Source: Nereocystis luetkeana (taxonomy: Eukaryota > Sar > Phaeophyceae > Laminariales > Laminariaceae). Taken from it: a stretch of 64,000 nt of DNA. Both the position numbers and the translations under genes were made by a program. The notes beneath the pieces are model-generated. The model was not told where the DNA came from, made no database searches, and worked only from the letters and a program-made list of their open reading frames with translations. The stretch covers positions 1,885,001 to 1,949,000 of the forward strand of contig JARUPZ010000009.1 in NCBI GenBank assembly GCA_031213475.1. The letters are read 5' to 3'. Position 1 is the stretch's first letter. Each line of letters opens with the position of its first letter. Of this stretch, positions 6,870-57,792 are shown in pieces.

Positions 6870-9800
6870 TTAGTAGAGATCGCCGGCTTCGACGCCACCG
6901 CTAGAGCTAGCCGCAGTAGTAACAGCACCCCCACTTGCGGTAGCCGTCATAATCTTCCCACTCCACCCCTTCGCCGTCCCCGCTATCTTGTGAAGTCCAC
7001 CTATCTTAGACAAAAACTGCGCGGATTTAATAACACCACCACCACCACCATCACCCTCACCACCACTTTTATCCGCCGTCACGTCCCCTTGGCTCTCGGA
7101 ACCAACACCCCCTTTCTCATACGCCGTTACGTCCCCTTGGGTCTCGGAAACACCCCCCCCCCCCCCCGTCCCGCCTCCGCCTCTGCTACCTTTTGAGCCA
7201 CCCCCCCCAACCCCACCTGGACCCTTGACCGCATGCATGCCGCCACCACCGCCATAGCGAGGGCTGCCGTACCGAGGGCTGGTGGTATTTGCAGTCAGGA
7301 TGTCTTCTTCGGGCACGGTGACCGCGCGCCGGAAGAGGAGACCTGGCCTAGCGAAGGGCGCCGCCGTCGCCGCCGCCACCGCCGCCCGGCTTTTGGACGC
7401 GGCCGCGGTCTTGATCTTGTTGAGGGCGCTGCTGCCGTTGATCATCATGTTCCTACTGCTGTTCCTGTGCTTGTCGCTCCCATTCCCGTCGGCGCCGCAA
7501 ACACCACCGCCGCCGATCTCCTTATCCCCTCCGCCCTCCCCGCCAAGAACGCCGCTGCCACCAGCGGTACCAGCGGCAGCCGCAGCAATAGCGGCGGCAG
7601 CGGCGGCGGTAGCGGTGTCAACTTCGGGAAGCAGGTCATCCGCAGAAGGAACAGCACGGAACGTCGCCGTAGCCTCGGGCTTCGTCCAGGAGACCGCCCC
7701 CCCCCAACCCCTCGATCCCTCGCCTTCCACGCTGTCCACCCTTTGCAAACCCTTCGCCTTGGCCGCTGCTGCTCCCGGCTCTTTCACCTGAGGAAACACG
7801 CCTTCGGAGGCCGTAGCTCCCGGAAAGCCTTCCACGTCGGAATCTCCCGGGAAGATCACCATGTGGGGGGCCTCCCAGTTGCTTCCCCTTGGGCACTCTG
7901 GTCGTCCGCCGCAGTTGTCACAATTGGTGTACTCGTACTCGCTTCCAGCGTCGGGGTCACTACTGTCCTTGTCAACATCATTGCTGCCATTTTTGCTGCC
8001 CGCGGAGGCACAGCGGGCGGAGGTACAGCGCATGCATGCGGGAGGCGTGACCTCCGGGGTGGGGGGGAGGATGGGCGAGTTGGGCCCGCCGCCGTGAGCG
8101 TCCTCCGCGTCCGGGTCAGTCCCCGACGCCACGAGGTGACGCAGGAAAGCCTTGGCCTTCGCCCCGCCAACCTTCGTCGCCGCTGCCGCTGCCGCCGCCG
8201 CGGCCGCCGCGCAGGCCGGTGGCTCCTCCTCCTGCTTTAGCCTCTGCCTCTCCTGCTGCAGCAGCAGCTTCTTTCGCTTCTGCTCCTGCTTCTGCTCCTG
8301 CTCCCGCTCCCGCTGCAGCTGCAGCTTCTGCTTCGCGAGGGCGTCGTCCGCCGCCTCCTTTTTGGCCGCCGCCAACGCCGCCGGCCGAACACCGACCCCG
8401 GCCCCCCACGGCATCACTGCCGCGGCCGCCTTCTGCTGCAATGTCTGCTGCTCGGTCGAGGGCGAGGGAGACGTAGCGCTGGCGTAAGACGAGCGCTGCG
8501 GCGAGCGCGAGCGGGAGCGCGAGCGCTCTCGGGAGGGCGAGGTGACGGGCGCGGGAACAGCGCCGATAACCTTGCCGCTACTCGTTTTCATCACGTACGA
8601 CGAGGCCGCCGGTCTATTACTGTCGCCCTTCACTCCGCCGCTGCTGACTTCACCGCCGCCAGCAGCAGCCGCGAGAAGGAGCTTCCGTTCGTGCTTCTCC
8701 TTCCTGGCGGCCATGAGCGCGCGCTTTCCCTCCTCCACGAGAGCAGCAGTTTCGGCGGGGGTAAGCCTGCGCGACGACCTCGAGAACGTGCCACCGCGAC
8801 CGCCGCTAGACGACGAGTCCGTAGGAGACGAGGAGGTGATGATGGTGAGACCTTCACCTCTACCGAGTCCGCTGCTAGTCCCGCTGGCGCCGTCCTCCGC
8901 GCCCTCAGCGATGACGTCGCCACTGCTACTGCTGATCCCAAGGGAAGGAGAAGCGGTACCTTCTACGTCGCGTTTCTTCTTCTCCATTGCAGCAATCGCG
9001 GCGTCAAGCCCTCCAGGACCCTGAGGCAGCAGCGAACCGGGGGCAACCTCCTCTTGGGGGGGAGCGGGGGGGGGCTGCATGGACAGGTGCCTGCGGAGCA
9101 GTCCCGAGGGCGCCGGGGCAAGGTCGGTGCTAGTCACAGCTCCCCGGGTCCAGGCCCGCCTCTTCACACCACCGCCCGGGGTCGTGATCACCTCCTCCTC
9201 CTCTTCCTCTACCCCTTCCCCCTTCTCCTCTCCTTCCTCTTTCTCCTCGCCCTCCGGCGGCACAACCACCGTCATCGCTCCGTTCGACGAAGCCGATGAC
9301 AGTTCTTTCGCAACATCGTCATCTCCCTCCACTCCGACGTCCCCGCCTCCCTTCCCCCCCCCTTCCGTACCGGAATCACCGCCCCCGCCCTCTCCTCCTC
9401 CTCCTTCAACGGGGGCCTTTTCATCTTCATCCCCGGCTGGCGCCACAGTAGGCAAAGTTGACGCCGACACCACCACCGCCGCCGCAGTCGCCGCAGCAAC
9501 CGCCGCAGCAGCTTGCGCAGCCGAAGAAGCGGTAACCGCGGCGGCCACCGCCCGCTTCGCCCGCGCCGCCCTCATCCGCCCCCCCGCCCCCGCTCCGCCT
9601 GTATTCGCCCGTAGCAACGCCCGCGTCCCCGCCCTGGTCCACGACCTCCTCGTCCCTTCCGCCTCAGCGAGCTTTGCCGCTGCTGCAGCGGAGGCATTCG
9701 AAGCAGCCGCTGCCGCCGCTTCGGCCTCGGTCTCTGCTTCCACCGCTGCCGTCGCCGCTGACGCGAGCGCTGCCGCCGAGTCTGCTGCCGCGGCTGCTGC

Positions 9801-10293
9801 CGATACCGCATCGGAGGCCGCGGCGGACGCTTCTTCGGCCATCGCTTCGGCTGAGGAAGCCGACGCTGTCGTTGCTACTGCCTCCGCAATTTCTCCCGCC
9901 ACGGCGCCCTGACTGTTGTGGGCGTCGTTTCCGGTAGCCTTTTCGTCGGCAGCGTTTTCGGCATTTTTTCCGGTAGCGCTTTCGTCAGTAGCACTTTTAT
10001 CGGAAGCGTTTTCAGCGATTTTTCCGGTAGCGCTTTCGTCGGTAGCGCTTGTAGCGGCCGGGACCGCATCAGCACCAGCAGCAGGGTATTCTGTTGGTCC
10101 GTCGCCCTCCAGCCCAGCCCCCTGCGGAAGTACGGGCTGCTGTTGTTGGTCGGGCTTAGGCTCATCGCCGCCGCTGTTTGCTGCTGGTTCTGGAGCTGGG
10201 TCGGGCAGTACGCCCATACTGGCCTCGAGGTTAGCGCCAGGCTCGACGCAAAGGTCTCCGTAGGAAACGTGGCCGGAGCACGTTGCTCCGCAC
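6870..10293 (-). CDS. Bactofilin-like gene, exon 4 (last beta-helix turns and low-complexity tail)
   Basis: The acceptor CCTGCTAG ends at 10294. The first base completes an Arg codon and the frame continues CGATCSGHVSYGDLC and VEPGANLEAS, the closing turns of a bactofilin domain. The remaining roughly 1,120 residues are Ala/Gly/Ser-rich. Visible sub-features are a Ser/Arg-rich tract with SPSRERSRSRSRSP (about residues 5473-5497), a Gln/Glu/Lys/Arg coiled-coil-like stretch (about 5543-5582) and two Cys triplets, CMRCTSARC and CDNCGGRPEC (about 5643-5692), that could bind zinc. The exon ends with a TAA at 6870-6872. The sequence upstream of the acceptor is a polypyrimidine tract that stays open as leaderless frame and should not be translated. 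Confidence 0.72.
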
Positions 10294-10791
10294 CTAGCAG
10301 GAGGTAGGGAGAATGGGGGGATGGAGGTGGCAGGGAGAGTGGGAGATTGAGGGAGGGGGAGGGGACAGGGAAAAAGGGAGAGGAGGAGCGAGGGAGAGGG
10401 TAGATATGGGTAAAGGAAGGTTGGTATCATATATTGCTGGAAAAAAATGGAATAAATATCAGCGGAACATTACGCACCAATGTTGGGGCGTCGCATGGAA
10501 TCTTCCAATACACCAGGAGTTGTAAATATGTCGGTATCAAAAAAAAGAAGAAAAAAAAATGTCAGAAGTTTCGACAAAAGCTCCTTTTCGGTGGGGCAAT
10601 GACGTCAGAATAACAGAAGATAGGAGTATAGATCACTACGGTTAGACAACGTACCGGGTTTTCCGACTTTTCCGTCAAACCGGAACTTTCACGTATGTAT
10701 CGTATCGGTTGTCAGCTCTCGGAAAATAAAGTGCCCAAATTTACGATGAACACAAAGATAATTCGGCGACACAAAGATACGACCGATTTAG

Positions 10792-10826
<35 letters not shown>

Positions 10827-13800
10827 GTATTTTGCTCATCCCCTTTATTATCTTCGCACATCTTCTTCTCTCTCTGCTTCTAACTCGTAACTCAGATCCG
10901 GGATCACATAGCAGGCTCTTCTAACCCCTTCCCGCTACGTTACGTGCCTTCATTTTTATCGCGAGAAGATTTCAGCCTTTTCTTCCCTCGTCGACTCGCA
11001 TCGAATTGTGCCTGCCCACGCTGCAAGGCGCTCTCAACAATTGAATCCTTTTTTATTTTTATTTTTGCAAATAAAGTCAAATGTACGACCCACCTGGGGC
11101 TCGAACCCAGGACTCAAATACTACCAGAATTCGAGTTTAACCACTTAACCACCGGGGCGACCGGCACACTAGTTTACGTATTGCATCGGTTATCAAGTTG
11201 GAAACTAAAACGTCCCGATCTCCGATAAAAAACACCTTTCGGCGACGCAATGATAAAACGAAACCAGATCATTTTGTATCACATTCATGTTGGGACATCG
11301 TATAGGGTTTTCCGATAAATCGGAATTAGTATGTACCATATCGTTTCTCCAATCAGAAAGTATGCGTGGTTTCTTGTCTGTCCCTCTCGATCTCCGCCAA
11401 CACCCATTCATCCACGTAGCGAGGCAGGAGATGTATATTTTAATTGTCTACCAGGTAGGTATACACTGCTGCCTCCTCCCCCACATGTTATAATATATAT
11501 ATATATATATATATATACGAGGTGAATGGATTCGACGTGAGGTGTCTGCCAGAAATAATAAAATAGCGCCTTCCTCGTCTGCAGGCACATCGGCATGTAT
11601 TACCCGAGTGTCGGCTAACTCCTCGATGTCACCAAAAGATCACACGGCTGATGCCAATGGAACACTTTATATATAGAGTACCGTCTGCTTAAAAAACAAA
11701 ACCCCGGTGGCTTGGAAGGTTGTCCGCGTGCCTATCAAGATCAATTTCATGGGTTCGAGTATCACTGAGCGCATGCTCGTATATACCTGGTAGGGACTTT
11801 TTGTTGCATTAACAAATTGATTGGCGGAAAGCGCGAGAGCGTGAGCTAGCTACATTCGATGAAAATCGACGCGCAGTGGGAATGCCGAACCCTATGCGCG
11901 ACAAAAAATCCAGGCACGTACCGGGGGGGAGCAGGGACGACACCTGTAACCACGGCTTGTCCAGAAGATCGCTCCTACGAGTTAGGCTGGAAAGTAAAAG
12001 TGAATGATGACTAAGTTTACTTACGTACGTACACGTAGGTGTACGAGCAATTTACCGTCCAATTAAAGTTAGCCCCCTCATCCCATGTAGTATTGCCAGC
12101 CAATCCCAGAATGTAAGGGAGAAAGGGGTTGAGGAAGATCGTGACTTGAGTTTGTGCGAAACTAAACGATCATTATCAGCGACTTGAGTTAGTATGAGAC
12201 CAAACGAATATTACCAGTATTGCAGAGTAATTCAAGGCGTCATTAAACAGTCCTCACCTCGGAAGGCGCACATTAAAGCATGTCCAAAACAATAAGTCCG
12301 TGGCCACAGGGACAGGCTCCAAAAACTGGAGCGGAAGGATATCTCAGGGGGAACATCGTTACATATATGCAGCCAAAGCTCACCACCTTGTGTCACATTT
12401 ACAACTGATACCTCATTTTTTAATAACGATAATGATGCACACAGCGCTTGTTCTATCGAAATAAATCACACCATCCACAAAAAAAAAAAGAGAGAATTCC
12501 GGAATATACTTCATGACTTCAAACAACGCCATTTATTTTCATGCATTCACCTGACGGTCAAGAGATGCCTGCACTCCATGTTTCCATCGAAGGTGCCCTT
12601 GACAGTCACATTATCCGCGAGAACTTTGCCTTCGACGGTGGCTCTGGAGAAAAAAAAAAGAGATGCGAATACGAGGGGGCGAGCTGAGCGTAAGGAGGGG
12701 CCGGGTAGGGGCGATGAGATTATCCATGCTAAAAACAACAACAACAAAAAATGGGCAGACGTGCATTTTGATTTGATAGGTTGAACTCGAAGCAAAATGA
12801 ACCGCCGTTGCCTCCCCTCCGCAGCCTGCCTCCCCCCCCCCCCAGAAAATCACTGACTGTTTGTTTTTTTTTCAACAAAAAGTCACCACCACAACCTCCA
12901 CGAACCTAACTCCTACGTACTCGGCGACCCAACCGAATCCAGCCAAAGCACACCGAACCGAACGTATCCTAACTCACTCCGTTTACTTCAGCCACACCTA
13001 ACCCACCCCAAGGGAGAAGATGCTAGGAAGTAGTGCGATATCATGGGAGAGGGGAGTGACAGGGAGGAGATGGTATTAAGAGGGTGCTTTTTTACATTGG
13101 CGGAGGCCATGTAGAGAGAGAAGGATGAGGTGATGAAAGTGTTGCAGTGCGTTGAAGCAGTCGAGGGAAGAGAGGGGGTGGGGGTGTTGATACCTATACT
13201 GCCTTTAGGACTGTGGGTACATGCATACATGTGATTTGGATGTTACGGTAAGACGTCGATGGGATACAGCAGTACTCCTGCGGTTTCACGAAATAAATGG
13301 TTGAGTTGCGTCGGCAGCTTTGTTAATAGGGTGAAACAAAAAACGAAGGTATTTTGCGCACCCAACTCGTATATCAGGACAAACCACATGGAACTGTTAC
13401 GGGGGGCCATAGTTACTAGGACCTATGGCATACATAATAACCTATACCCTGGTATATTTAACCATTTTTTACTAACAATATTTGGTCCTACTAACTATGG
13501 TCCCCCGTAATAGTGCGAGATTATTTTTGTGGAGGGAAAACAAATTGGGCTCCGCAAGCTCACCCTTCGTCGATCTGCAGGGTTTTCACGTCCATCGCAC
13601 CCGCCACCTGGCCCTGCACCACCAACAGCTTGTTGGCGCCGGCAATGTCGGCCCCCTCCATCACCTCCTCTGGGCTCACGACCATCGTAAGCATCTCCTG
13701 CCCGTCCTCCGACCCCTGCGCGCCATCGACGTCGACATCGCTCGCTGCTGCTGCGCCATCAGCCTTTCCCGAGGAGGCGGCAGTGACAGCAGCAGCAGCG

Positions 13801-16800
13801 GTAGCAGCGGCTACGGTGGCGGTAGGAGTAGCCGAGACAGAAGCAGCAGTAGCCTCAGCAGGAGCAGTAGTAGCGGCGACAGCAGTAGCAACAACAACAG
13901 CCTTGTCGGAGGAGGAGCAAGCGCTTCCGCCACTCTGAACGCTAGCCTCCTCCTTAGCACCAGCACCACCGCTACCGTTGGCGTCAGCACTATTACCGTT
14001 GTCGTCAGCATTATTACCGTTGTCGTCCGCACCACCGCCATCCTTAGCGTCGGCATGGGCGCTAGTCTTGGCGTCAACATTTCCGTTGGCGCTATCATTT
14101 CTGCTAGCAATACCGGCAACCGTAGACGAAGGCGCCGCCGCCGTCGCCTCGGCAGTAGCGGCCTTACCACGGCGTCGCTCGCGTCCAGGCGTTTGCGCCG
14201 CTCCCGCGAGCGTCTTCATCAACATTCCGTTCCCGCGCTTGTTCCCTTCCCAGCTAATGCCGCCGTACCCACCATCACCACCGCCGGTGCCAGCGGCGCC
14301 GCCGATGCCGCCACCGCCACCACGTCCGAGCCCGAAGGCCGGGAGGACAGGACTGCCTGTTGTAGAAGCGGCGGAGGGGGGAAGAGGCAACCTCGCACCG
14401 CCACCGGCGGCGGCGACAGCTCTTGCGACAGCGCTGCTGCTCTTTGTGATGCTGCTGATGGTGTTGGTTTTGGTCATGGCGTTGTTATTGTTGGCGTGGG
14501 TGTTAGCGTCGGCGTTGCTGTTGCTGCCATTGGTCTTCGCGTCTTCGCTGCTGCCAGTGGTGGTGTCGATGTCGGAGTTGGAGCTGGCCTTGTTGGCGGT
14601 GGAGGCGGAAGAGCTGGAAGAGACAGTCGTCTCCCCCGACAGCATGCCGGCGACGGTGATGCGGGTCCGCGGAGGGATCACGATCGACTCGGCGGGGGTT
14701 TTGATGCCGGCGGAGGCGGCGGCTACCGCGGCGGCCGCGTCGAGGGCCGAGTAGTCGTCCAGGTCGTCACCAATTGATGACTCCAGGATGGTGTCGAAAA
14801 ACTCGTTCATGTCGATTCCTGTAGTATTAATATGTCAGAAGGAGGGAATTAGAGGGGGGGGGGGGGGGGGTGAAGGCGGAGATGGGCAGGGGTGGAAGGG
14901 AAGGGAAGGGGAGGCGGACGGGTGGTGGGAGGGGGACAGGGAGACGAGGGTTAGCGAAAGATTGTCCGGAAACCATATATGGTAGGTAGGGAAGGGAGAG
15001 GAGAGAGGTGGCGGAGCGGATTGGGTCGCTTCGATACAACGTCGAGGTTTATTGTTTCATTGTTTAATTTGATTGGAAAAAAAACTTCGCACCCGAAGGT
15101 CGCGAGCGCATGCATGATCCCACACTTGATTCCACGTATATTCAAGTTTGTCTCCAAGAAGGGAGGGCGAAGCAAGGCAGATGTAATATTATTAGTGTCA
15201 CCAAGCTTTGAAAATATGAGTTTGAAGACAATTAGAGCCAGCGGTATACAAAAACGAATAGAACACGGAGCCATACTCGCCACGATGTCGAAAACAAACT
15301 ATTGGCGGGTTGGGGATTTTTATCCAGAAACTGAAAAAAAAAAAAATGTTTTTTCTTGATACGCTTTTTTTTCCTTGGGGTTAGCACACCCCCCCCCCCC
15401 CTCCTTCCCTGGGGCTCGAAAAAAAAAGAGGTAGGGCGTCGATTCGTTTTCCGTGAACGAACCCTTGTTAGAGCAGGTGTTCACAAAAAAAAAACAATAA
15501 GCATATTCGCACGAGACACTAAAAAAACTCCTGAGACAGTGGTGGTGGGAAGTTAGTTGTAGAGGGGGGGAAGACAGGGGAGAGAAAGAACAGAGGAGAC
15601 GAGACTGCAAAAAAATGAAAAAAACAAAACAAGCACCCCCCTCCCACCAACCGCCTACCAACAATAAAACTACCAAAACAACAAGATGAACAAGAGACCA
15701 AAAAAAAAAAAAGAGAAGAGACACGAACATCAAAAGGGAAGAGAAACCGAGACGGAGAAAAACGGAGGAGGAAACAAAACTTGAACGAAAAGCAAGAGAC
15801 GCAGGTAATAATCCACCCTCTAAAAATAAAAAACAGCCTTATTAAAATCAAGCTCACCAAGAATCTTGCACGCCTTCTTGAAGCTCTTTTCCGCCTCGAC
15901 CACGCTCTGCGCGTTATCCACATCCCCGAAAGGTCCCCCGCCGATCCCGGAGATGCGCTGCCCCGCGCTCTCCCCCCCTCGCGCTCTGGACGCAGCCCCC
16001 CCCCCCGCCCCGACTCCTGCCTCCTCCTGTCCTTTGACTGTTCCCTTGACGTCCAGCTTGTTAGCCACAACCACCGGCGCCGCCGCCGTCGCGGCCGCCC
16101 GTGCTGGGGTCGTCACCGGTGCCGTAAAAACCGGCTTCAATACCTTTGCTGGTACCACCGCCGGCACGGCCACCGGTGCCGTTGCGGTCAACACGGGTTT
16201 CAAAACCTTCTTCGCTGTTGGCGCCACCACAGCCACCACACTCTGCGCCGGCACTTCCCCCGACGCCGGCATCTCCTTGGGCGCCGCCGGCACTTCTTTG
16301 GGCGCCGGCACCTCCTCCGACGCAGGCACCGCATCCGGCGCCGGCATATCCTCTGATGCCGCCACCTTCTCCGGCGCTGGCATCTTCTCTGACGCCGCCA
16401 CCTCCTCCGGCGCCGGCATCTCCTCTGACGCCGCCACCTCCTCCGGTGCCGGCATCTCCTCTGACGCCGCCACCTCCTCCACCAGAGGGGCAACCGGTAC
16501 CGATACCGCCGCCATCTTCACTGGTGTCCGCGCCTCTTCCGGGGCCACCACCACCGCCGCTGCCACCGTCGTCACCGCCATCGCCTCCTCCACTAGAGGT
16601 GAAACCACCGCCGGCGCTACCACCGTCGTCACCGCCGACGCCTCCTCCACTAGAGGTGAAGCCGCCGCCGGCGCTACCACCGTCGTTACCGCCGGCGCCT
16701 CCTCCACTAGTGGTGCAACCGACGTCACCGCTCGAGTCGACGTCATCGCCGGCGCTTCCTCCACCAGAGGGGCAACCGGTACCGATGCCGGCGCCATCTT

Positions 16801-19800
16801 TACCCGTATCCGTGCCTTTTCTGGTGCCACCACCACCGTCTCTGCCGCAGCCGTCACCGCCGGCGACCCCTCCGCCAGAGGGGCAACCGGTACTGATGCC
16901 GGCGTCGTCTTCACCTGTGGCCATTTCTTTGCTGGTACCGATGCGGGCGTTGTCGTTACCGGTGCTCGCGCCTTTGCTGGTGCCGCCGCCATTGCCGACG
17001 CCACCGACAGGGCTGCCACCGGCGTCACCGCTCGCATCGCCGTCACCGACGGGGCCAGTGCCTCCTCCACCAGAGGGGCAACCCGTACCGATACCGGCGC
17101 CGTCTTTACCGGTGTCCGTGCGGCCACCGCCACCGTCGCTGCCGCCGTCGTCACTACCGGTACCTCCTCCACCAGAGGGGCAACCGGTACCGACGCCCGC
17201 GTCGTCTTAACCTGTGGCCATTTCTTCGCCGGTACCACCGCTGCCGCCGCCGCAACCACCGTCTTTTCCTGCGCCCGTGCCTCTGCTGGTGCCACCGACA
17301 TCACCGCCGCCGCCGCAGCAGCCACCGGTGCGTCGTCTACCAGAGGGGCGGAAAGAGAGACGCTGTTGAAGGTGCTTGTTGTCAGGAGAGCGTCCTTAAC
17401 CTGGACGACAGGCTCCACCTCATGGGTCTCCTGGACAACTTGTTCATCTTGTCCTTGATCCCCCTTCTGCGCTCCCTCTTCCACCCTAGCTAGTTCTTGC
17501 TCTAGGTCAACCTCTTCCTCCCTCTCCAAAATTTGCATCTCCCCCTTAACGACCTCGTCTCCCTCCCTCCGCTCATTCTTCTCCGCCTCTCTCTCCACCA
17601 TACCTTGCTCCGTCCTCCCCCCCCCCACCACCCCTCGCCCCTTCTCCTGCACTTCTTCCGACTGCGAGACGCTCCCCCCACGGTGACCATCGCCACTAGC
17701 CCCGACGCTTGACCTCCTAGTCCCGCCGCTCAGCCTAGACACGCTGCTGAACCTAGCACCGCCGTCGCCACCGTCACCGCTACCACCACCGAGGCTGGCA
17801 TGGCCGAACAGCATACTTTCGCGGCGGCTCCCGGTCGTCGAGTACCGCGCCGCCACTCTCCGCAACACCTCAAGCGCCTCCCCCGGAGTGTACTGGCTCT
17901 CGGCGTCGCTGTCGCCATACCATTCTTCTTCCCCCCCCGCCACCCCCATGACCTCCGCCGCAGCATTGTACCCGAAGTTTTCCCAAACCTTACCTTCGCC
18001 GGCGCCCTCTCCCGCCGCCGCCGACCCACCAGTCTTGCTGCGAACGTCACCGCCAGCACCCTTGGCGGCCGGGGCACGGGCGGCGGCGACGACAATTGCG
18101 AGCGGTGTTTCGTCCGCGTCGAACTTGGCGAAGACGTCTTGTCCGGGGCTGCTGCAGCCGCTACTGTTGCTGCTGCTTCCACTGCTGCTTCTAAATCCCG
18201 CTCCAGGGGCTGCCTTCTTCATCCCTTTAGGCGCTACAGGCACGGATACGCTTCTGCGTCCGCCCGCTGCGGGCGAGGACGTCTTCATCTCCTGGGACGC
18301 TACTGGCAAGATCACTTTGGGCGTTACTGGAACGATATTTTTGGGCACTACTGGAACGATCCTTTTGGGTGCTACTGGCACGGATGCAGACATTTGATTC
18401 CACTGCTGGATCTTCTCCCGGACGCTGGTCTTGGTGCGGCCCACCTCCTCGGACTCTTCTTCTGCCGCGAATTTCTCGGCCGCGGTGGGGTAGGATTTGT
18501 CACATTTCTTCTCTTTTTCCGCCTCCGCCTTTTCTTCCACCGCCGCCTCCGCAGACTTTACAGGGCCGGTGCGGCCGCTGCTGCTGTAGCTGACACTACC
18601 ACCACTATTGCTGGTGTTATCGCTGTTGCTTCTTTCGTCGGGAATGGGGACCTTTACTTCTTTGATGCGCGAGGGGTCCACCTCGCCATCGGTGGTGGCC
18701 GAAGAATTCACCGCGGCCGCCGCCGCCACCGCGACCGCCTGCGCCGCCACCGCCTCTGCTGACGCAACGGCGGCCGCTGTCGCTGCTGCCGCCGCCGCAA
18801 CCGCTGCCACCGTCGCCGCTTCCGCAGCTGCCGCCGCCTCCGAGATGACCAAGTTTTCGCCATCGATATCACCACCGCATGCCGTGTCCAAACACGCCGG
18901 CGTGCGGGACACTGGCGCCATCGGTGCCACTGGCATCACCGACCTTGATGAAGCCGTCGGCGCCACCTCCGACACGACCTCTGGAGCGGGCGCTGGCGCC
19001 ACCGACGATTCAGCGGCTGTCACCGCCAAAGACACGACCTCCGTGCCGGGCGCATGCGCCACCGGTGCCACTGGCGCCACCGGCGATGAAGCTGCTGACG
19101 CCGCCTTCGACATGACCTCCAAGATGGCCGAGCTGTCGCCTCCTCCGCCACCGCAGGCTGGATCGAAGCGCGCCGGCGTGTCATCCGCCCCCGCGACAGG
19201 CGCCGCTGCCACCACCGCCGCCTCCGAGATGACTGATCTGTCTCCGCCATCAGAACCGGGCGTTGTGTTGTCGCGCGCCGTTGTCACCACCGCCGGCGAA
19301 ACAGGCACCACCACCGCCCCCGCTTCCGCCGTCGCCACCAGCGCCGCGACTACCAAGTTTTCGCGATCGCCATCACCACCGCACGCTGTGTCGGCACACG
19401 CTGGCTTGCTGGGAACAGGCGCCACCGGTGCCACTGGCGCAAATATCACCGCAGGGAGTAAGGCTGCCGAAGCCGCCTCCGACATGACCTCAGCGCTAGG
19501 GGCTGGCGCCACCGGTGACACTGGTGCCACAGCCACCACCGGCGATGAAGCCGCCGACGCCGCCTCCGACATGACCTCAGCGCCAAGGGCTGGTGCCACC
19601 GGTGCCACTGGGGCCACAGCCACCACCGGCGATGAAGCCGCCGACGCCGCCTCCGACATGACCTCCGAGCCGGGCGCTGGCGCCACCGGTGCCACTGGCG
19701 CCACAGCCACCACCGGCGATGAAGTCGCCGACGCCGCCTCCGATATGACCTCCGCGCCGGGTGCAGGCGCCACCGGTGCCACTGGTGCCACAGCCACAAC

Positions 19801-22800
19801 CGGCGATGAAGTCGCCGACGCCGCCTCCGATATGACCTCCGTCCCTGGTGCAGGCGCCACCGGTGTCAATGGCGCCACAGCCACCACCGGCGATGCAGCC
19901 GGCGACGCCGCCTCCGACATGACCTCCGTGACGGGTGCTGGCGCCACCGGTGCCACTAGAGCTACTGGCACCACCGGCGATGAAGCCGCGGACGCCGCCT
20001 CCGACTTGACCTCCGTGGCGGGTGCTGGCTCCATCGGTGCCACTGGCACAACAGCCACCACCGGCGATGAAGTCGCCGACGCCGCCTCCGATATGGCCTC
20101 CGCGCCGGGTGCAGGCGCCACCGGTGCCACTGGCGCCACAGCCACCACCGGCGATAAAGTCGCCGACGCCGCCTCCGATATGACCTCCGTGCCGGGCGCA
20201 GGCGCCACCGGTGTCAATGGCGCCACAGCCACCACCGGCGATGAAGCCGGCGACGCCACCTCCGACATGACCTCCGTGCCGCGTGCTGGCGCCACCGGTG
20301 CCACTAGAGCCATTGGCACCACCGGCGATGAAGCCGCCGACGCCAACTCCGACTTGACCTCCGTGGCGGGTGCTGGCTCCGCCGGTGCCACTGGCACCAC
20401 AGCCCCCACCGGCGATGAAGCCGCCGCCGCCGCCTCCGACATGACCTCCGAGCAGGGCTGTGGCGCCGTCGGTGCCACCGGCGATACTGACACCAACGGC
20501 GATGAAGCCGCCGCCGCCGCCTCCGACATGACCTCCGAGCAGGGCTGTGGCGCCACCGGTGCCACCGGCGATACTGGCACCACCGGCGATGAAGCCGCCG
20601 ACGCCGCCTCCGACATGACTTCCGTGACGGGCACTGGCGCCGCCGGTGCCACTCGGGCTAATCGTACCACCGGCGATGAAGCCGCCGACGCCGCCCCCGA
20701 CATGACCTCCGTGCCGCGTGCTGGCGCCACCAGTGCCAATGGAGCTACTGGCACCACCGGTGATGAATCCGCTGACGCCGCCTCCGACATTGCCTCCGTG
20801 CCGGGTGCAGACGCCATCGGTGCCACTGGCGCCACAGCCACCACAGCCACCACTGGCGATGGAGCCTCCGACGCCGCCTCCGACACGACCTCCGAGCCGG
20901 GCGCTGGCGCTATCGGTGCCAATGGCGCCACAGCCACCACCGGCGATGAAGCCTCCGACGCCGCCTCCGACATGACCTCCGTGACGGGTGCTGGCACCAC
21001 CGGTGCCACTGGAGCCACAGCCACCACCGGCGATGAAGATGCCGACGCCGCCTCCGACATGACCTCCGTGACGGGTGCTGGCACCACCGGTGCCACTGGA
21101 GCCACAGCCACCACCGGCGATGAAGTCGCCGACGCCGCCTCCGATATGACCTCCGTGCCGGGTGCAGGCGCCACCGGTGCCACTGGCGCCACAGCCACCA
21201 CCGGCGATGAAGCCGCCGACGCCGCCTCCGACATGACCTCCGTGACGGGTGCTGGCACCACCGGTGCCACTGGAGCCACAGCCACCACCGGCGATGAAGA
21301 TGCCGACGCCGCCTCCGACATGACCTCCGTGACGGGTGCTGGCACCACCGGTGCCACTGGAGCCACAGCCACCACCGGCGATGAAGTCGCCGACGCCGCC
21401 TCCGATATGACCTCCGTGCCGGGTGCAGGCGCCACCGGTGCCACTGGCGCCACAGCCACCACCGGCGATGAAGCCGCCGACGCCGCCTCCGACATGACCT
21501 CCGTGACGGGTGCTGGCGCCACCGGTGCCACTGGAGCTACTGGCACCACCGGCGATGAAGCCGCCGACGCCGCCTCTGACATGACCTCCGTGGCGGTTGT
21601 TGGCTCCATCGGTGCCACTGGCACCACAGCCACCCCCGGCGATGAAGCCGCCGACGCCGCCTCCGATATGACCTCCGTGACGGGCACTGGCGCCGCCGGT
21701 GCCACTCGGGATACTCGTACCACCGGCGATGAAGCCACCGACGCCGCCTCAGACATGACCTCCGAGCAGGGCTGTGGTGCCACCGGTGCCACCGGCGATG
21801 AAGCCGCCGACGCCGCCTCCGACATGACCTCCGTGACGGGCACTGGCGCAGCCGATGCCACTGGTGCCACAGCCACCACCGGCGATGAAGCCGCCGACGC
21901 CGCCTCCGACATGACCTCCGTGCCGCGTGCTGGCGCCACCAGTGCCAATGGAGCTACTGGCACCACCGGTGATGGAGCCTCCGACGCCGCCTCCGACTTG
22001 ACCTCCGTGACGGGCACTGGCGCCGCCGGTGCCACTGGCACCACAGCCACCATCGGCGATGAAGCCGCCGACGCCGCCACCGACATGACCTCCGAGCAGG
22101 GCTGTGGCGCCACCGGTGCCACCGGCGATACTGACACCACCGGCGATGAAGCCGCCGACGCCGCCTCCGACATGACCTCCGTGACGGGCACTGGCGACAC
22201 CGGTGCCACTAGAGCTACTGGCACCACCGGCGATGAAGCCGCCGACGCCGCCTCCGACATGACCTCCGTGCCGGGTGCTGGCGCCACCAGTGCCAATGGA
22301 GCTACTGGTACCACCGGTGAGGGAGCCGCCGACGCCGCCTCCGACATGGCCTCCGTGCCGGGTGCAGACGCCACCGGTGCCACTGGCGCCACAGCCACCA
22401 CCGGCGATGGAGCCTCCGACGCCGCCTCCGACATGACCTCCGAACCGGGTGCTGGCGATATCGGTGCCAATGGCGCTACTGGCACCACCGGCGATGAAGC
22501 CGCCGACGCCGTCTCCGACATGCCCTCCGTGACGGGCACTGGCGCCACCGGTGCCACAGCAGCCACCGGTGCCAATGGTGCTACTGGCACCACCGGCGAT
22601 GAAGCCGCCGACGCCGCCTCCGACATGACCTCCGTGCCGGGTGCTGGCGTCACCGGTGCCACTGGTGCCACAGCCACCACCGGCGATGAAGCCCCCGACG
22701 ACGCCTCCGACATGACCTTCGCGCCGGGTGCTGGCGCCACCAAGGCCACAGGCGCCACAGCCACCACCGGCGATGAAGCCGCCGACGCCGCCTCCGACAT

Positions 22801-25800
22801 GACCTCCGAACCGGGCGCTGGCGCCACCGGTGCCAATGGCTCTACAGCCACCACCGGCGATGAAGCCTCCGATGCCGCCTCCGACGTGACCTCCGTGGCG
22901 GCGGGTGCTGGCGCCACCGGTGGCACTGGCGCCACTCGTACCACTGGCGATGACGCCCCCGACGCCGCCCCCGACGCCGCCCCCGACGCCGCCTCCGACA
23001 TGACCTCCGTGACAGGTGCTGGCACCACCGGTGTCCCTAGCACCACTGGTGCGACTGGCGCCACAGCCACCACAGGCGATGAAGCCGCCGACGCCGCCCC
23101 CGAAATGATCTCCGTGCCGGATGCTGGCGCCACCGGTGCCACTGGCACCACCGGCGATGAAGATGCCGACGCCGCCTCCGACATGACCTCCGTGACAGGC
23201 GCTGGCACCACCGGTGTCCCTAGCACCACTGGTGCCACTGGCGCCACAACCACCACAGGCGATGAAGCCGCCGACGCCGCCCCCGAAATGATCTCCGTGC
23301 CGGATGCTGGCGCCACCGGTGCCACTGGCACCACCGACGATGAAGCTGCCGCCGCCGCCTCCGACATGACCGCTGCGCCAGGAGCTGGTGCCACCGGTGC
23401 CACTGGCGCCGCTGGTATCACCGGCGATGAAGCCGGTTGCACCATCGGCGATGAAGCCGGTGGCAACGCTGGCGCCACAGTCACCACCGGCGATGAAGCC
23501 ACCGACGCCGCCTTCGACATGACCTTCGTGCCGGGTGCTAGCGCCACCGGTGCCACTGGCGCCACTGGTACCACCGGCGATGAAGTCGATGGCACCACTA
23601 GCGCCGCAGCCACCGCCGGCGATGAAGCCACCAACGCCGGTACCGACATGACCTCCGTGACGGGTGCTGGCGCCACTCGCAGCACCGGTGAGGAAGCGGC
23701 CGACACCGCCTCCGAAGGTGCTGACACCAAATCCGACGTGACCTCCGTGCCGGCCGATGACGCCACCGGTGCCACTAACGCCACTGGCACCATCGGTGCC
23801 ACTAGCACCGTAGGCAATACCGGCGATGACGCCGACGCCGCCTCCGACATGACCGCCGTGCCGGGCACTGGCGCCACCGGCGATGAAGCTACCGGCACCG
23901 CCTCCGACATGACCTCCGTGCCAGGCCTTGGCGCCACAAGCGCCACTGGCGCTGTTGGGACCACCGGCGATGAAGCCGCCGACGACGCCTCTGACATCAC
24001 CTTCAAGATGGCCGAGCTGTCTTCTCCCCCGCTGCCGCAAACTGGGCCGAAGCGCGCAGGCGTTACATCTACCCCCGTGGTAGGCACCGCCACCACCACC
24101 TCCGCCCCCGAGATCACTGATCTGTCGCCGTCATCACCACCACCGCACGTTGTGTTGGGGCACGCCGTTGTCACTGTCGCCGGCGATATAGGAACGGGCA
24201 CCGCTGCCTCAGGGACCGCCGCCGCCGCCGCTTCCGCCGTTGCCACCTCCGAGATGATCAAGTTTTCGACATTGCCATCACCACCGCACGTTGTGTCAGA
24301 GCACGCCATTGTCACCGCCACCGGTGATACAGGCACGGGCACCGCTGCCTCAGACGCCGCCACCGTTGCCTCTTCCGAGATGACCGAGCTGATTCCGTTA
24401 CCGTCTCCACCGCGTGCTGTGTCGAAGCATGCCGGTGAGTCCGCCGCCGATGATACGGGCACCGCCGGTGATACGGGCACTGGCACCGTTGCCGTAGGCG
24501 CCACCACCGACAAAGCCTCGGCTGACGTAACGGCGGCCGCCGTCGCTGCCGCTGCCTTCACCTCCTCCGATAAGTCCAGGCTCGTGCCGTCGCCGTAACC
24601 ACCGCACGCTGTGTCGAAACACCCCAGGGTGCCCGCCGCCGCCGTCATTCTCGCCGCCATCGGCGATGAAGCCGTCGACGCCGATTCCGACATGGTCTCC
24701 AAGATGATCAAGTTGTCGCGATGATCATCGCCACCGTACGTGTCCACGTGCGCCGGCATGTCGGCCACTGACGCCGCAGCCGTTGGTGCCACCTCCTGTG
24801 AGATGGCCGAGCTGGCACCGTCGCCCATACCACCGCACGCTGTGTCGAAGCACGCCGCTGTCACGGCCACGGGCGAAACAGGCACCGGCGCCGTTGCCTC
24901 CGGCACCGCCACCGACACAGCCTCCATCGCCCTCGCTGCGGCCGTCGCTGCCGCTGCCACCGAAACAGCCTCCGTCGCCCTCGCTGCGGCCGCCGCTGCC
25001 GCTGCCACCGCTACAGCTGCCGCCGCCGTCGCTGCCGCCACCTCCTCGGAAATATCCGAGCTTGTGAAGTCGCCGTCACCACCGCACGCTGTGTCGAAGC
25101 ACGCCGGTACAGCTGCCGCCGCCGCCGCTGCCGCCACCTCCTCGGAAATATCCGAGCTTGTCCAGTCGCCGTCACCACCGCACGCTGTGTCGAAGCACGC
25201 CGGTGCCCCCGCCGCCAAAAAAGTCGCTGCCACAGGCGACGAAACCGCCGACGCCGCCTCCGACATGGCCTCCAAAATGATCGAATTGTCGCTATCACCA
25301 TGACCACCGCATGCACGGTCCACGCCCGCCGGCATGTCGGCCACCTCCACCGCCGCCATCTCCTCTGAGATCTTCGCAATAGCCCCTTCATCGTCACCAC
25401 CGCACGCCGTATCGAAGCACGCCGCTGTCACCGCCCTCGGCGACACAGACACCGGCGCCGCTGCCTCTGCTGACGCTACGGCGGCCGGTGTCGCTGGCGC
25501 CGCCGCTTCTGCCACTGCAGCTGCCGTCGCCGCCACTGCTGCCATCTCCTCCGAGAGGTCCGAGCAGATGCCGTCGGCGATACCACCGCACGCTGTGTCG
25601 AAGCACGTCGGCGTGCCCACCACCACCATATTCGCCGCCACCGGCGACGAAGCCGCCGACGCCGCCTCCGACATGGTCTCCAAGATTACTAGGTTTCCGC
25701 GATCAGCATGGCCACCGTACGTAGTGTCCACGGGCATGTCGGCCACTGCCACCGCTGCCGCCGCCGCCACCACTTCCTCTGAGACCAGGTTATCGCCGTC

Positions 25801-28800
25801 GCTATCACCACCGCAAGCTGTGTCGAAGCACCCCGATGTGACCGCCACTGCGGCCGAGGTAATAGCCGCCGTCACCGGCCCCGCCGTCGCCGCCGGCGTC
25901 TCCGAGAGGACTGAGCTGTCGCCGTCTCCATCCCCACCGCACGCTGTGTCGAAGCACGCCATTGTGTTTGCCGCCACGGACGATGAAGGCACCGCTGTCC
26001 CCGCTACGGGCGATGAAGCCGCCACTGCCACCGCAGCCGCCACCGGCGTCTTTGATGTGACCGCGCTTTCATCACCATGACCACCACCTCCGCCGCCAGC
26101 GCACGCCGTACCCACCACCGCACACGGCGCGTCGACCAAGATCCCTCCCTCCTCACCCACTTCTACCTCCTCCTCCTCTTCTTCGTCTTCATCTCCCTCA
26201 CTTTCTGCAGAATCATCAGAATCATCATCAAGGCCACCACCAACAAGGACTTCAACATCGTCCTCGTCGTCGAATTCGCCTTCGTCCGGGAGCGACTCTC
26301 CGTCGTCCGAGGTGGGGGCGCTATGAATGACGCTGCTGAGGTCGCTCTTGGATTCCTCCACATCATCGGGGGACCACATCCACACCTCCTCTTGCCCTTG
26401 CACCACCCCATCCGAACAGTCCGACAAGCGGGCCGAGAAAGAGCACGAGGTCGACGAAGACGAGGATGAGGACCGTTCCACGGAACGCTCCGACCGTTCT
26501 TCGACGGAGGAAAACCGGTCGCCGCGGGAGGACCGTCGACGCTGCAGCTGCTGCTGTTGCCTCCTTTTTTCGGTGTCGCGGTCATCGTCCTCGCTGAACG
26601 ACGGGATAGATGGAAACGATGACCGCTCGGACGCGTCCTCGGCCTCCCCCTCCACAATGGCGCTCATGATGTCCACCACGCAGCCCCCTACTTCTTCCTC
26701 CTCCTCCACGTCGCCGAAGTCCTCCTCCTCCTCCTTCTCCTCCATGTCGACGAATTCTTCTTCCTCCTCCTCTACCTCCCGGCCCTCCTCCTCCTCCTCC
26801 ATGTCGCCGAAGTCGTCTCCCTCCTCCTCCTCCTCCAACTCGCGGCCCTCCTCCGCCTCTTGCGTGCCCAGGACCCCGCTAAAGCCCGGGAGACCGTTGG
26901 GGTCTCCCCCTCCATCCTCCTGCTCCTCCTCTTCATTCTGGTCCTCTTCCTGCCTGCGCAGGAGCAGGTCGGCCGCGTCGGCGAGCAAAGAGGCGTCGTC
27001 TACGAGCAGCAGCGAGTCATCGTCCACATCCTCGCCGCATACGACCATCGGGGCCAACGCCGCTGCTGCTGCCTCCTCCTCCGCTGCTGCCGCCGCTGCC
27101 GCCTCTGCCTTTGTTGGAGAGGATACCACAGTGTCCGGCGACGAGAAAGCGGCTGCTCGGTTTGCCAAGAACTGCCACAAACCCTTGGAATTTTCCTGGG
27201 CAGCTTCACCGTAGCCAGCGCCCCCACCCGCCTCCCCCCGCCCTGCGGCCGCCCTCTGCCCCACCTCCAGTCCCATCGCGGACGAAGACGACGGTGATGT
27301 CGGTACCGCCACCGCTACCGCTACCGCTGTCGCGGCAGCAGCAGCGGTGCTTGGTGGCTGCCGCTGGTGCTGTTGATGCTGTCTCGGGTTCGGGTGCTTG
27401 TTCTCGCTGTGACCCGCTTCCTCCCCCCCCTCGCCCTCGCGCCACGGTGCCCAGAGCTGCTGTGGTGGGCGTTGCTGCTTGGGGGAGGTGTGCGGGCGAC
27501 CGGGGCTCCTTCTCCCCGTCTCGTTAGCGGCGCCCGTTGTGAACGAGCGAGGGGAGGAAGAGCACGACGCTGCCCCCCCCCCGCCGGCCGTGCCCCCCCC
27601 GGCCGCCGCGCCGTACCCCGCGATGCCGAACGCTGCCAACCTCTCGCCCGTCAAACGCGCTACCCCCGCCTTCAGCAGGATGTCTGCGTGCATTCTCCCC
27701 TGCCGCTGCCGCGCCTGCTCCAATTCCCGTCTCCTCTCCTCTTCTTCGACGGCTCGCAGCTCCTCCGCGGAGAGCACTCCGTCGAACTCGTCCCTCGCCA
27801 CCAGCGAAGGCGAAGACGCAGGAGAATTATAAGAACCGGCAGAGTAGTGGCCGCCGTGCGCGATGGACAGAGGGGTGGGGGCAGGCGGCGCAGACTCCAC
27901 CGCCGGCCTCGGTAGGGGTCGCTCGAAGCCGCCCGACCCCGCGCCCCCTCTGCGAGCCGGAATACCGCTGGCCGCGGCCGCCTTTGCGCGGGCGTGCTGC
28001 TGCTGCTGCTGTTGCGCCGAGGGACTCATGGCGGCGACGGTGGAGGCGACAGCAGCAGAAACGAACCTGCCTGCAGGGGACGCGGGACACGCGCCGGCGG
28101 GAGCGGTGGCGGCGGCGGTGGAGGCAACAGCCGCAGAAACGAAGCTCCCTGCAGGGGAGGGAGGTGTGGTGCCGGCGGTAGAGGTAACAGCAGGAGAGAC
28201 GAAGCTGCCGGCAGGGGAGGGCGGCGCGGTGATGTTCCCGACGTAGCCGTTGGGAGGAGGAGGAGCGCCGAGGAATCGCGGGGCGGGTGGTGGTGGTGCC
28301 GCTGTCGCCGCCGTCATTTTCGCCAAATCCGGCGGCGGCCCGTGGTGGTAGTGGTGGTGGTGGTGGTGGTGCAGGTGTTGATGCTGGTGGCGGTGGTCCT
28401 GCTCCCCCGTGCTGCCGACAGAACTCGTACCCGTCCCGCCCCTCCTCTCCGAGCCTACCGCGAAAGAATCCCAGTCCGAGTCGCCGCTGTAGTGCTCCGC
28501 GCCGCTGTACGAGTGCTCCTCGGACGAAGCAGCAGAAGAGTAGACGACGGACATGGGGGAGTTGCTGGAAAGGCGGGCCTCTAACCGCGAGCCGTCAACG
28601 GCGCGAGGGTAAGGGAGGCCCAACGAAGGGGGTCGAACGGTCCCGCTTTCAGGCGGGCTTGGGATATCGTCGGAAAAAGAGTCCTCGCGGAGGATGGCTT
28701 CGTTCGGCAGGGTCGACGCTGGTGCTGGGTATATCGCGTTGCTCCTCGTTGTCCCACTGCTGTTGCTGCTGCTGGTGCTGTTGCTGCTATTGTTGCTGCC

Positions 28801-29184
28801 GCTGCTGCTGCCGCTGCTGCTTCTGCATCCCGCTCCAGGCGCGGTTTCATTCATCCCGTTGGGTGCTGCTCGCGCGGACAGAGATCCGTGGTTCCACTCG
28901 ATGGCTTCGTTCGGCAAGGTCGAGGCTCGTGCTGGGTGCGTCGCGGGGCTCCTCGTCGTGGTGCTGCTGCTGCTGCTGCTGCTGTTGCTGCTGCTGTTGC
29001 TGCCGCCGCTGCTGCTCCTGCGTCCCGCTCCTGGCGCGGTCGCGCTCATCGCCTTGGGTGCTGCTGGTGCGGACACAGACCCTTGGCCCCACTGCTGCTT
29101 GTTGCTACCGCCCTCGGAGCGCCGACACGGCTGCCGTTGGGACATGTCCGTGTCCTTCGAGGGAAGAGAAAAAAGGGACGACAT
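6870..29184 (-). CDS. Giant multi-exon protein with an internal bactofilin domain (whole gene)
   Basis: Four minus-strand exons (29184-15858, 14818-13564, 12643-12551, 10293-6870) join with matching phases (1, 2, 2) at GTGAGC/GTGAAT donors and AG acceptors, giving about 6,032 residues. Joined residues about 4840-4910 form four consecutive turns of 16-17 residues with the alternating hydrophobic/Gly pattern of bactofilins (Pfam Bactofilin, formerly DUF583): short beta strands closed by motifs such as IDEGATVEG, VKGTFDGN and VEPGANLEA. Bacterial bactofilins polymerise without nucleotide into filaments that scaffold membrane or wall enzymes; they are usually 120-200 residues with short disordered ends. 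Here the core is flanked by about 4,400 repetitive residues and a tail of about 1,100. I infer a structural or scaffold role. No signal peptide or membrane segment is evident. ATG 29184 is the first ATG after an in-frame stop; ATG 29145 is the alternative, and an upstream 5' exon is possible. Domain call strong, exact termini less so. Confidence 0.78.
10294..12550 (-). other. Intron 3 of the bactofilin-like gene
   Basis: 2,257 bp, GTGAAT...TGCTAG. It carries a full-length SINE with (TA)n tail, a second (TA)n tract at 11493-11516 and two TACCWGGTA motifs (11449 and 11784). No exon was recognised inside it. Confidence 0.65.
10790..11166 (-). mobile_element. tRNA-derived SINE, full length, in intron 3
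   Basis: Read on the minus strand it opens GCCGGTCGCCCCGGTGG, has a B-box-type GGTTCGAGCCC about 50 nt later, then a body of about 240 bp shared with the copy at 43477. It ends in a (TA)n tail. The A-box region reads TGGTTAAGTGG. Confidence 0.8.
12551..12643 (-). CDS. Bactofilin-like gene, exon 3 (93 nt, two beta-helix turns)
   Basis: This is a 93-nt exon between acceptor TTTCTCCAG (ends at 12644) and donor AG|GTGAAT (12550). It completes a Gly codon, then encodes 30 residues containing ATVEGKVLADNVTVKGTFDG and NMECRHLLTV, and ends in phase 2. The Gly/Val spacing and length match two 16-17-residue turns of the bactofilin beta-helix. An alternative acceptor 2 nt downstream would break the frame. 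The exon is too short to be found by ORF length and is identified by phase and domain continuity. Confidence 0.8.
12644..13563 (-). other. Intron 2 of the bactofilin-like gene
   Basis: 920 bp, GTGAGC...CTCCAG. It contains one MITE-A copy (13395-13512). The rest is unremarkable. Confidence 0.7.
13395..13512. mobile_element. MITE-A copy 3
   Basis: Inverted ends GTTACGGGGGGCCATAG and GGTCCCCCGTAATAG. The centre carries TACCCTGGTA where clean copies read TATATA. Confidence 0.8.
13564..14818 (-). CDS. Bactofilin-like gene, exon 2 (start of the beta-helix domain)
   Basis: The acceptor CTACAG ends at 14819 and a CTGAC branch-point-like sequence lies just upstream. The exon begins by completing a Gly codon, then reads IDMNEFFDTILESS, continuing the helix-like end of exon 1. 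At residues 4486-4505 a beta-strand-like segment (ESIVIPPRTRITVAGMLSG) resembles the first bactofilin strand. About 330 residues of Ala/Ser/Asn/Gly low complexity follow before the core resumes with LLVVQGQVAGAMDVKTLQ. The donor is GG|GTGAGC at 13563 (phase 2). An ATG at 14810 could be mistaken for the gene start. Confidence 0.75.
14819..15857 (-). other. Intron 1 of the bactofilin-like gene
   Basis: 1,039 bp, GTGAGC...CTACAG. It holds poly-A/T and C-rich runs and AT-rich unique sequence. No mobile element was recognised. Confidence 0.7.
15858..29184 (-). CDS. Bactofilin-like gene, exon 1 (about 4,442 residues, repetitive)
   Basis: A single open exon of 13.3 kb. From the N-terminus it shows: two copies of a Ser/Asn-rich module marked by TAPGAG and RSSSG; a charged, probably helical stretch at residues 459-519 (LSAEELRAVEEEERRRELEQ); a Glu-rich acidic stretch at about 742-842; a block with the motif CFDTACGG at about 1030-1710; about 50 tandem 29-residue repeats at about 1725-3250; a less repetitive stretch near 3740-3800 (YTPGEALEVLRRVAARYS); and a Val/Ala/Pro/Glu repeat block at about 3945-4370. 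Its last coding bases, after KKACKIL, meet a G|GTGAGC donor at 15857 in phase 1. Without splicing the frame stops 12 codons later. Composition is extreme, but 4,400 codons without a stop and an exact phase match to the next exon argue for real coding sequence. Confidence 0.75.
16080..17350 (-). repeat. Val/Ala/Pro/Glu repeat block near the end of exon 1
   Basis: Imperfect repeats of VPVAPLVEEAPAVTT type, then a shorter Glu/Pro repeat (EEVAASEEMPAPE). They are coding and in frame, with much trinucleotide drift. Confidence 0.7.
18860..26110 (-). repeat. Repeats carrying the CFDTACGG motif
   Basis: Nineteen copies of a short motif, eight of them exactly CFDTACGG, usually followed by DGDG and an acidic ISEE-type segment. 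Fifteen lie between about 26100 and 24000 and four after the 29-residue array (about 19300-18860). Spacing is irregular. The paired Cys and following Asp/Gly suggest disulphide or metal-binding potential, but I recognise no family. Confidence 0.7.
19440..24010 (-). repeat. 87-bp coding minisatellite, about 50 units
   Basis: Tandem units of 87 bp in frame with exon 1. Each encodes 29 residues built from MSEAASAASSPVV followed by a Val/Ala/Pro stretch such as AVAPVAPVAPAPG. Many units differ by only a few substitutions, and some blocks (for example around 21000-21420) are nearly identical. That pattern suggests recent unequal exchange or slippage. The frame is kept throughout. Confidence 0.85.
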
Positions 29185-52737: not shown

Positions 52738-53270
52738 ACTACTACTCTATAATATGATGCCTCGCCGCCGCTCGTTCACGAGTACCGGTATGTGAGTGCT
52801 GTCGTATATTTGTTACCTTACAACTTCGAAACCAGCCATTACGGAGTATTATCATAGCCCGGCCTAGGCCTCCCTTGCAGGCCGCGGGGCCTACTTATTG
52901 TCCCAACCGGACGCTCTCCCTCATTTTAATAGAATAATGTTTTGACATCTTTCGCCCCCCGAGACAGCGAACTAAGCGATGATAACTTTTGGTGTTGTCC
53001 ATCGTCTACGAGCATCACTCCCCTAGCAGTACACACGTAGACCATGTCGCTGCCGTGCCGCACGACTCCGTGCATCGTAACTCATCGGACACCAGTTTCT
53101 ATCATCCACCAACCACGCTGTGGCCGTTGGTGTAGTCGCCACTTTCGATCGTTAACATTTCCCTCTGAAGCCCCAAAAAGGATGAACCCCAACCACATGT
53201 CATTGCACACTAGCCCCGACAACGGCCACATGTTGCACCCCGCTTTAGAATACAGCACAGTAGCGCTCAC

Positions 53271-53361
53271 CTGCCGATGAGACCCACGAAGAACCGTCCA
53301 CTGCTCTGCCGGAAGGTTCGAATACCAAGAGGGTTCTTCACGGCCGGCGGAGACGAGAGGC

Positions 53362-53440
<79 letters not shown>

Positions 53441-56767: not shown

Positions 56768-57792
<1,025 letters not shown>

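Follow-up and report, generated by a model that had tools for sequence, protein, structure and literature searches.

The DNA considered here is a stretch of 64,000 nucleotides (the window) from the brown alga Nereocystis luetkeana, positions 1,885,001 to 1,949,000 of contig JARUPZ010000009.1 in assembly GCA_031213475.1, and on its minus strand lies a candidate spliced gene whose product would carry a bactofilin domain (Table 1). All three introns run from GT to AG, in phases 1, 2 and 2, with the donors of introns 1 and 2 identical over 9 bases, and joining the four exons (13,327, 1,255, 93 and 3,424 nt when counted from the ATG at 29184) yields a single open frame of 6,033 codons including the stop. 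Judged from the sequence, exons 2, 3 and 4 are joined in matching phase at their GT-AG sites, while exon 1 is a provisional member, discussed below. A start at 29184 would give a protein of ~6,032 residues, and a start at the ATG at 14810, which lies 8 nt inside exon 2, one of 1,587 residues. The first bactofilin turns are the final 43 residues of exon 2 (from 13691). They are preceded by an N-terminal arm, at minimum 373 residues long (counted from 14810) and ~4,800 if exon 1 is joined, and the domain is followed by a C-terminal tail of ~1,110 residues rich in Ala, Gly, Ser and Glu. Exon 3, which encodes two turns, begins and ends in phase 2, such that the frame would be kept if it were skipped.

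Table 1. Features of the candidate bactofilin gene and the other bactofilin loci of the genome. Positions are those of the window, except for the last seven rows, which name contigs of the assembly; MITE, miniature inverted-repeat transposable element; SINE, short interspersed nuclear element.
Feature	Position	Strand	Remarks
Exon 1 (provisional gene member)	15858..29184	-	4,442 codons from ATG 29184
Tandem array (minisatellite) in exon 1	19418-22975	-	87-bp (29-residue) unit, ~41 units
Intron 1, 1,039 nt	14819..15857	-	GTGAGCTTG...CTACAG; phase 1
Exon 2	13564..14818	-	own in-frame ATG at 14810, begins MNEFFDTILES
Intron 2, 920 nt	12644..13563	-	GT...AG, phase 2
MITE-like element inside intron 2	13393-13514		31-nt inverted ends
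Exon 3, 93 nt	12551..12643	-	two bactofilin repeat turns, ATVEGKVLADNVTVKGTFDGNMECRHLLTVR
Intron 3, 2,257 nt	10294..12550	-	GT...AG, phase 2
tRNA-headed SINE-like repeat inside intron 3	11085-11159 (tRNA part)	-	called Thr-GGT
Exon 4	6870..10293	-	last bactofilin turns to ~10218, then C-terminal tail; stop 6870-6872
Second copy of the tRNA-headed SINE-like repeat	43483-43556	+	called Val-TAC
C4 core	C4		two exons joined; PF04519 69.7 bits
C23 core	C23		two exons 32 kb apart, provisional join; PF04519 66.3 bits (first exon alone 37.3)
C16 core	C16		two exons joined; PF04519 53.8 bits
C36 core	C36		part of domain found; PF04519 46.7 bits
C3 core	C3		part of domain found; PF04519 41.8 bits
C2 core	C2		part of domain found; PF04519 35.8 bits
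C22 core	C22		two exons joined; PF04519 35.8 bits

When the bactofilin turns of exons 2, 3 and 4 were joined, the resulting core of 116 residues matched the Pfam Bactofilin profile (PF04519) with E = 1.1e–16 and 61.3 bits over profile positions 9–96 of 98, against a cut-off (gathering score) of 27.9 bits. No exon reached that score alone: exon 3 gave 23.3 bits (profile 41–70), and neither the exon 2 part nor the exon 4 part had a PF04519 match up to E = 1. Adjoining pairs scored 41.8 bits (exons 2 and 3, profile 8–70) and 41.9 bits (exons 3 and 4, profile 41–96), and joining exon 2 to exon 4 without exon 3 left 22.1 bits (profile 44–96), below the cut-off. Within the joined core exon 2 covers profile positions ~8–40 and exon 4 covers 71–96; that is, successive exons fill adjoining stretches of the profile without a gap, and full coverage is reached only in the complete join. 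Because the exons occupy adjacent stretches of the profile, the two splices within the domain are supported independently of the splice sites. The original prediction for this locus was of a bactofilin domain in a spliced eukaryotic gene, with matching phases at three junctions, a core that appears only after splicing over exons 2–4, two turns supplied by a 93-nt exon, and introns inside the domain amid long repetitive flanks. These claims are borne out, the Pfam search of the joined segment having returned the significant match just given.

The same picture was obtained with a second hidden Markov model (HMM), built from four bacterial bactofilins only, which were taken from plasmid records. 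On this bacteria-only HMM the joined core scored 72.9 bits, whereas the highest value among 2,000 shuffles was 10.3 bits (a score was obtained for 1,871). Among the six-frame open reading frames (ORFs) of the window of at least 15 aa, the top three were exons 3, 2 and 4 (E = 6.5e–5, 0.0054 and 0.95), matching HMM positions 69–94, 21–66 and 100–123, respectively, in collinear order; since the next, unrelated ORF had E = 1.1, exon 4 by itself is not significant on this model. The four annotated bacterial bactofilins reached 61.4–81.0 bits in the same Pfam scan, with the window domain at the low edge of that range. By profile membership, the predicted product of the window gene is a bactofilin-domain protein. 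Its core can be cut by eye into repeat segments of 16, 19, 17, 16, 17 and 15 residues, and it is this repeat, with the profile match, that speaks for the right-handed triangular beta-helix of about six turns expected of a bactofilin. A lone bactofilin turn suspected at residues 41–64 of the 1,587-residue form was rejected at an HMM score of ~2 bits.

A search of the PDB with the single sequence placed BacA (2n3d) first, with E = 4e–4, and a five-sequence profile that included the window core gave 2n3d at 1.9e–22 and 6ria at 1.2e–12, the latter, like 6rib, being the Thermus bactofilin. That profile also touched designed ankyrins (best 1.2e–6), a phage tail fibre (6.5e–6) and the complex I protein CA2 (0.07), contacts that would suit a core belonging to another beta-helix family, such as the left-handed hexapeptide-repeat proteins (gamma carbonic anhydrase), and merely bactofilin-like. 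We regard this as extremely improbable, given that in the profile search BacA and the Thermus bactofilin lie ahead of all other entries by some six orders of magnitude at least, and that Bactofilin was the sole Pfam family for the joined core up to E = 1, with no hexapeptide-repeat profile among the matches. Neither NCBIfam nor PHROGs assigned the core to a family up to E = 1, and Rfam had no match within the window.

Some protist proteins are annotated as 'polymer-forming cytoskeletal'. Deng et al., in Nature Microbiology in 2019, are said to name oomycetes among the bearers of bactofilins. Compared with the bacterial bactofilins of Caulobacter (BacA, 2n3d), Thermus (6ria/6rib) and Myxococcus (BacM and BacP), the window protein is alike in that PF04519 is nearly full-length in both, turn spacing is similar and tails stand on both sides; it differs in that its gene has introns inside the domain, its tails run to hundreds to thousands of residues and it has no clear membrane-targeting peptide. 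At the C-terminal polymerisation interface, where bactofilins have a conserved hydrophobic residue, BacA Phe130 aligns with a Leu here (PDB alignment, native chain numbering assumed), which is hydrophobic but not Phe. Membrane-targeting peptides are common in bactofilins but not universal, and their consensus, MFSKKKK, was drawn from 14,337 bacterial bactofilins, according to section 8 of PMC12448750. Short flanking disordered tails are usual for bactofilins and do not define them; those of the window protein, at least 373 and ~1,110 residues, thus mark a variant without excluding it from the family, and an exceptionally long C-terminal tail is mentioned for BacP in the part of PMC12448750 that describes it.

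Bactofilins are treated as a prokaryotic cytoskeleton, and that 2025 paper still groups them with polymers 'typically absent from eukaryotes' (PMC12448750). The original prediction had likewise called a eukaryotic version unusual, which was too strong: stramenopile bactofilins, with the same domain and from the same broad eukaryotic group, were described by Deng et al. 2019, a work represented here by its citation in PMC9448923, and the passages there on these proteins make no mention of intra-domain introns, a multi-locus family or giant versions. A bactofilin has also been reported for Imitevirales giant viruses, according to a description in PMC12192438, which again puts the domain in a eukaryote-linked genome; the comparison is by that description only. 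No report of brown algal or intron-split bactofilins was found in the literature searched, which covered eukaryote-related titles in part. A bactofilin in a stramenopile is already known, and a domain split by introns in a multi-locus family is a variant of it.

Bactofilins being mostly bacterial, one may ask whether bacterial DNA has contaminated the assembly; this explanation is refuted by the introns inside the domain, and we give it next to no probability. Introns 2 and 3 contain MITE-like and SINE-like repeats, as expected of a nuclear gene, and the two copies of the latter have ~100 nt in common past the tRNA part. The site also lies at 1.885–1.949 Mb of its contig in a 465-Mb assembly, and the same exon 2 is present on another contig in ENA. 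Light-harvesting proteins are plentiful in this genome (68 matches to PF00504), and for one of the ORFs the best match is FCP17 of 9ygv (364 bits, 179 residues), ahead of other fucoxanthin-chlorophyll proteins; together with the abundance of introns and repeats this points to a brown alga.

The genome searched comprises 1,987 contigs, referred to here by C-numbers (the window is C9:1885001-1949000). A genome scan with PF04519 reported seven places on six contigs, all outside the window, whose exons taken singly fall below the report level of that scan; in control genomes the profile was found in 4 of 14, all of them prokaryotes. Searching the genome with the window core returned its own three exons, as expected, with exon 3 found at this locus only; it also picked up C3 weakly (E = 0.33) and, on C22, a place not reported before (E = 0.54), and the C4 core returned C36, C23, C16 and a second C23 exon (E = 0.18). 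All seven other loci exceed the PF04519 cut-off (35.8–69.7 bits). They scored 23.2–42.2 bits on the bacteria-only HMM, where every one of the eight cores beat its own 500 shuffles (the cores reached 23.2 or more, the shuffles at most 12.8). The window gene is thereby placed, on profile evidence, as one member of a eukaryotic bactofilin family with at least eight loci in this genome; eight is a lower bound, because the genome search scores only the best candidates. This multi-locus family is a stronger result than the single window gene.

The domain is interrupted by introns also at C4, C16 and C22, and provisionally at C23, in positions that by eye differ from those of the window gene. C4, C16, C36 and C23 form a tighter group with 32–45% mutual identity; the window domain shares 31% identity with C22 (85 aligned positions) and 19–35% with the others, or 19–25% with the paralogues in a second alignment without C22, all of these figures being rough since short repeat pieces can slip by one turn. 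From an ATG in the C3 ORF the protein would start with MSLFKRRSSSKDLS, resembling the bacterial membrane-targeting consensus, and low-complexity sequence precedes its domain. C4 has a Lys/Ser-rich tail, and the C22 exons are followed, after ~0.9 kb, by a 434-codon ORF of low complexity that is a candidate part of the same gene. For C3, C36 and C2 no partner exons turned up in the surrounding 9.9 kb plus one adjacent 9.9 kb. The family HMM used on these flanks includes the paralogue pieces, so their recovery is built in; its only match on the reverse strands of the 13 loci was weak (E = 0.15). Some of the paralogue cores had sub-threshold matches to other families: Phage_spike for C2 (E = 0.0048), Rv1893 for C4 (E = 0.072) and an Mcm2-like family for C22 (E = 0.4). 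Look-alikes of the MITE-like element of intron 2 adjoin two bactofilin paralogues (by eye). Weak matches at C10, C21 and C6 did not hold up, and C34, found with the C4 core (E = 0.22), had no match with the family HMM.

A decayed, non-functional remnant of a transferred bacterial gene, surviving as a chance ORF, might be as divergent as the window domain (23–29% identity to the four bacterial members) and might have acquired such very long repetitive flanks. We think this very unlikely, seeing that the joined core has no stop or frameshift, that all three introns are GT-AG, and that the pattern is kept at seven other loci. The other ENA contig carries a near-identical exon 2 ORF (P0003, 416 aa), with 4 substitutions, none of which touches the 43 domain residues at its end, an outcome that by our own arithmetic is expected by chance ~2 times in 3.

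P0003 was also the only match in a homologue search with a 451-aa piece (280 candidates), and there were none for the core alone (targets of 64–203 aa, 4 candidates) or for the 1,587-aa form with the region set on the core (79 candidates); within the searched length ranges no orthologue from a named eukaryote appeared, in a database that may hold few spliced proteins. Plasmid records gave 11 matches, all bacterial, at 27–36% identity, and phage records one weak match (E = 0.7). Viral contigs scanned with the single core produced 8 pattern matches, none confirmed; a DNA motif found 4 loci there, none of them a bactofilin (ORFs judged by eye), and a long motif found no match. A two-sequence alignment found one relative among 77 pattern matches, on a contig with a Loktanella-like bactofilin and phage-tail-like ORFs (by eye), not a giant virus. 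These viral scans weigh neither for nor against a giant-virus origin. The scan of genome contigs, made with narrow patterns and no census, confirmed 1 of 70 pattern matches, from Loktanella.

The size of the window protein depends on exon 1, which is of low complexity (rich in Ala, Val, Ser and Pro), contains the minisatellite and has no Pfam match up to E = 1. We lean towards its being joined to exon 2, as its donor GTGAGCTTG recurs at intron 2 and the phase is compatible. Sub-threshold Pfam matches to a KilAC-type ANT domain (E = 0.23) and to Myosin_head (E = 0.35) cross the junction, and the segment across it, QSVVEAEKSFKKACKILG/IDMNEFFDTILESSI, has a helical moment equalled by 1.9% of shuffles, though the exon 1 half comes nearly equal (2.9%) and the exon 2 start is unremarkable (14%); we read the segment as presumably helical and as nothing beyond that. 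None of these observations is decisive against there being two genes, and it is a real possibility that the bactofilin gene starts at ATG 14810 and encodes 1,587 residues, exon 1 being separate, either the 3' part of another low-complexity gene or a leader. The in-frame ATG so close to the start of exon 2 favours this, as do the exon 1 ORF, which continues only ~12 codons beyond the donor to a stop at 15820, where the other gene or leader would end, and the lack of any Pfam domain (up to E = 1) or paralogue connecting exon 1 to the bactofilin. Of the ~6,000-residue protein first proposed, the frame and phase of exon 1 stand; its membership in the gene is provisional, and ATG 14810 would give the smaller product. 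The idea, also part of the original prediction, that the flanks serve as a giant spacer on a self-polymerising core is a hypothesis.

Tandem-repeat rows had a period that is a multiple of three in 43 of 44 cases, the rows overlapping and triplet-rich DNA favouring such periods; neither this count nor the ratio of nonsynonymous to synonymous change (N/S) in the repeat array, given below, was taken to prove expression of exon 1. An antisense ORF of 1,996 codons (18608–24598) shares its third positions with the exon 1 array by our own arithmetic.

We consider that the window probably holds a nuclear bactofilin-domain gene, one of at least eight loci, for a protein that may fold as a beta-helix and act as a self-assembling scaffold with long arms. 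Bactofilins assemble independently of nucleotide into non-polar filaments, and the BacA mutation F130R (Phe130 to Arg) blocks polymerisation (PMC12448750). By analogy, the joined domain would fold as the bactofilin right-handed beta-helix, and the helices would self-assemble through their ends, with no need of nucleotide, into filaments lacking polarity, from which the long disordered arms may project as a brush or as binding arms tethering membrane or client proteins, the protein acting as a scaffold. The most likely job is that of a static scaffold whose disordered arms are very long.

Several observations weigh against that reading as a whole. The gene model and function are predictions from genomic sequence; Leu stands in place of the interface Phe, the identity of 23–29% is to four plasmid-borne bacterial bactofilins, and neither candidate N-terminus, MSSLFSLPSK (29184) or MNEFFDTILES (14810), clearly fits the MFSKKKK membrane-targeting consensus by eye. 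Splice sites and phase are all that the exon 1 join is based on. When the exon 1/exon 2 junction was searched against the whole genome, the gene itself and one weak match (E = 0.43) were found, and no paralogue with which to test the join. The 29-residue repeats give little indication of constraint at the protein level: the relative N/S is 0.91 in the coding frame and 0.75 in an antisense frame, and codon-position variation among the 36 repeat units of equal length revealed no strong constraint on the sense frame.

Eight or more bactofilin loci in a large algal genome, several of them intron-split within the domain, would mean that a complex eukaryote has acquired a bacterial-type filament, multiplied it and elaborated it, and the located genes allow one to ask whether eukaryotic bactofilins polymerise and where in the cell. 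A bolder version, which we rate as rather doubtful, is a bactofilin cytoskeleton that a lineage of multicellular algae has built from at least eight diverged members, several of them intron-split, including a brush filament of ~6,000-residue proteins, with skipping of exon 3 setting helix length and the capacity for polymerisation.

Elsewhere in the window, the plus-strand ORF at 46004–46276 matches the Zeta_toxin P-loop kinase family (PF06414, E = 3.8e–8, profile 26–82), and another at 47512–47781 (plus strand) matches it below the cut-off (E = 0.0074, profile 82–132); the two match adjacent parts of the profile, as if intron-split. On the minus strand 53270–53959 is ankyrin-like, below Pfam cut-offs, and the ORF next to it (54088–54297, minus strand) had no Pfam match up to E = 0.01. 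A trinucleotide array of ~900 bp (56916–57978) can be read through in several frames of either strand.

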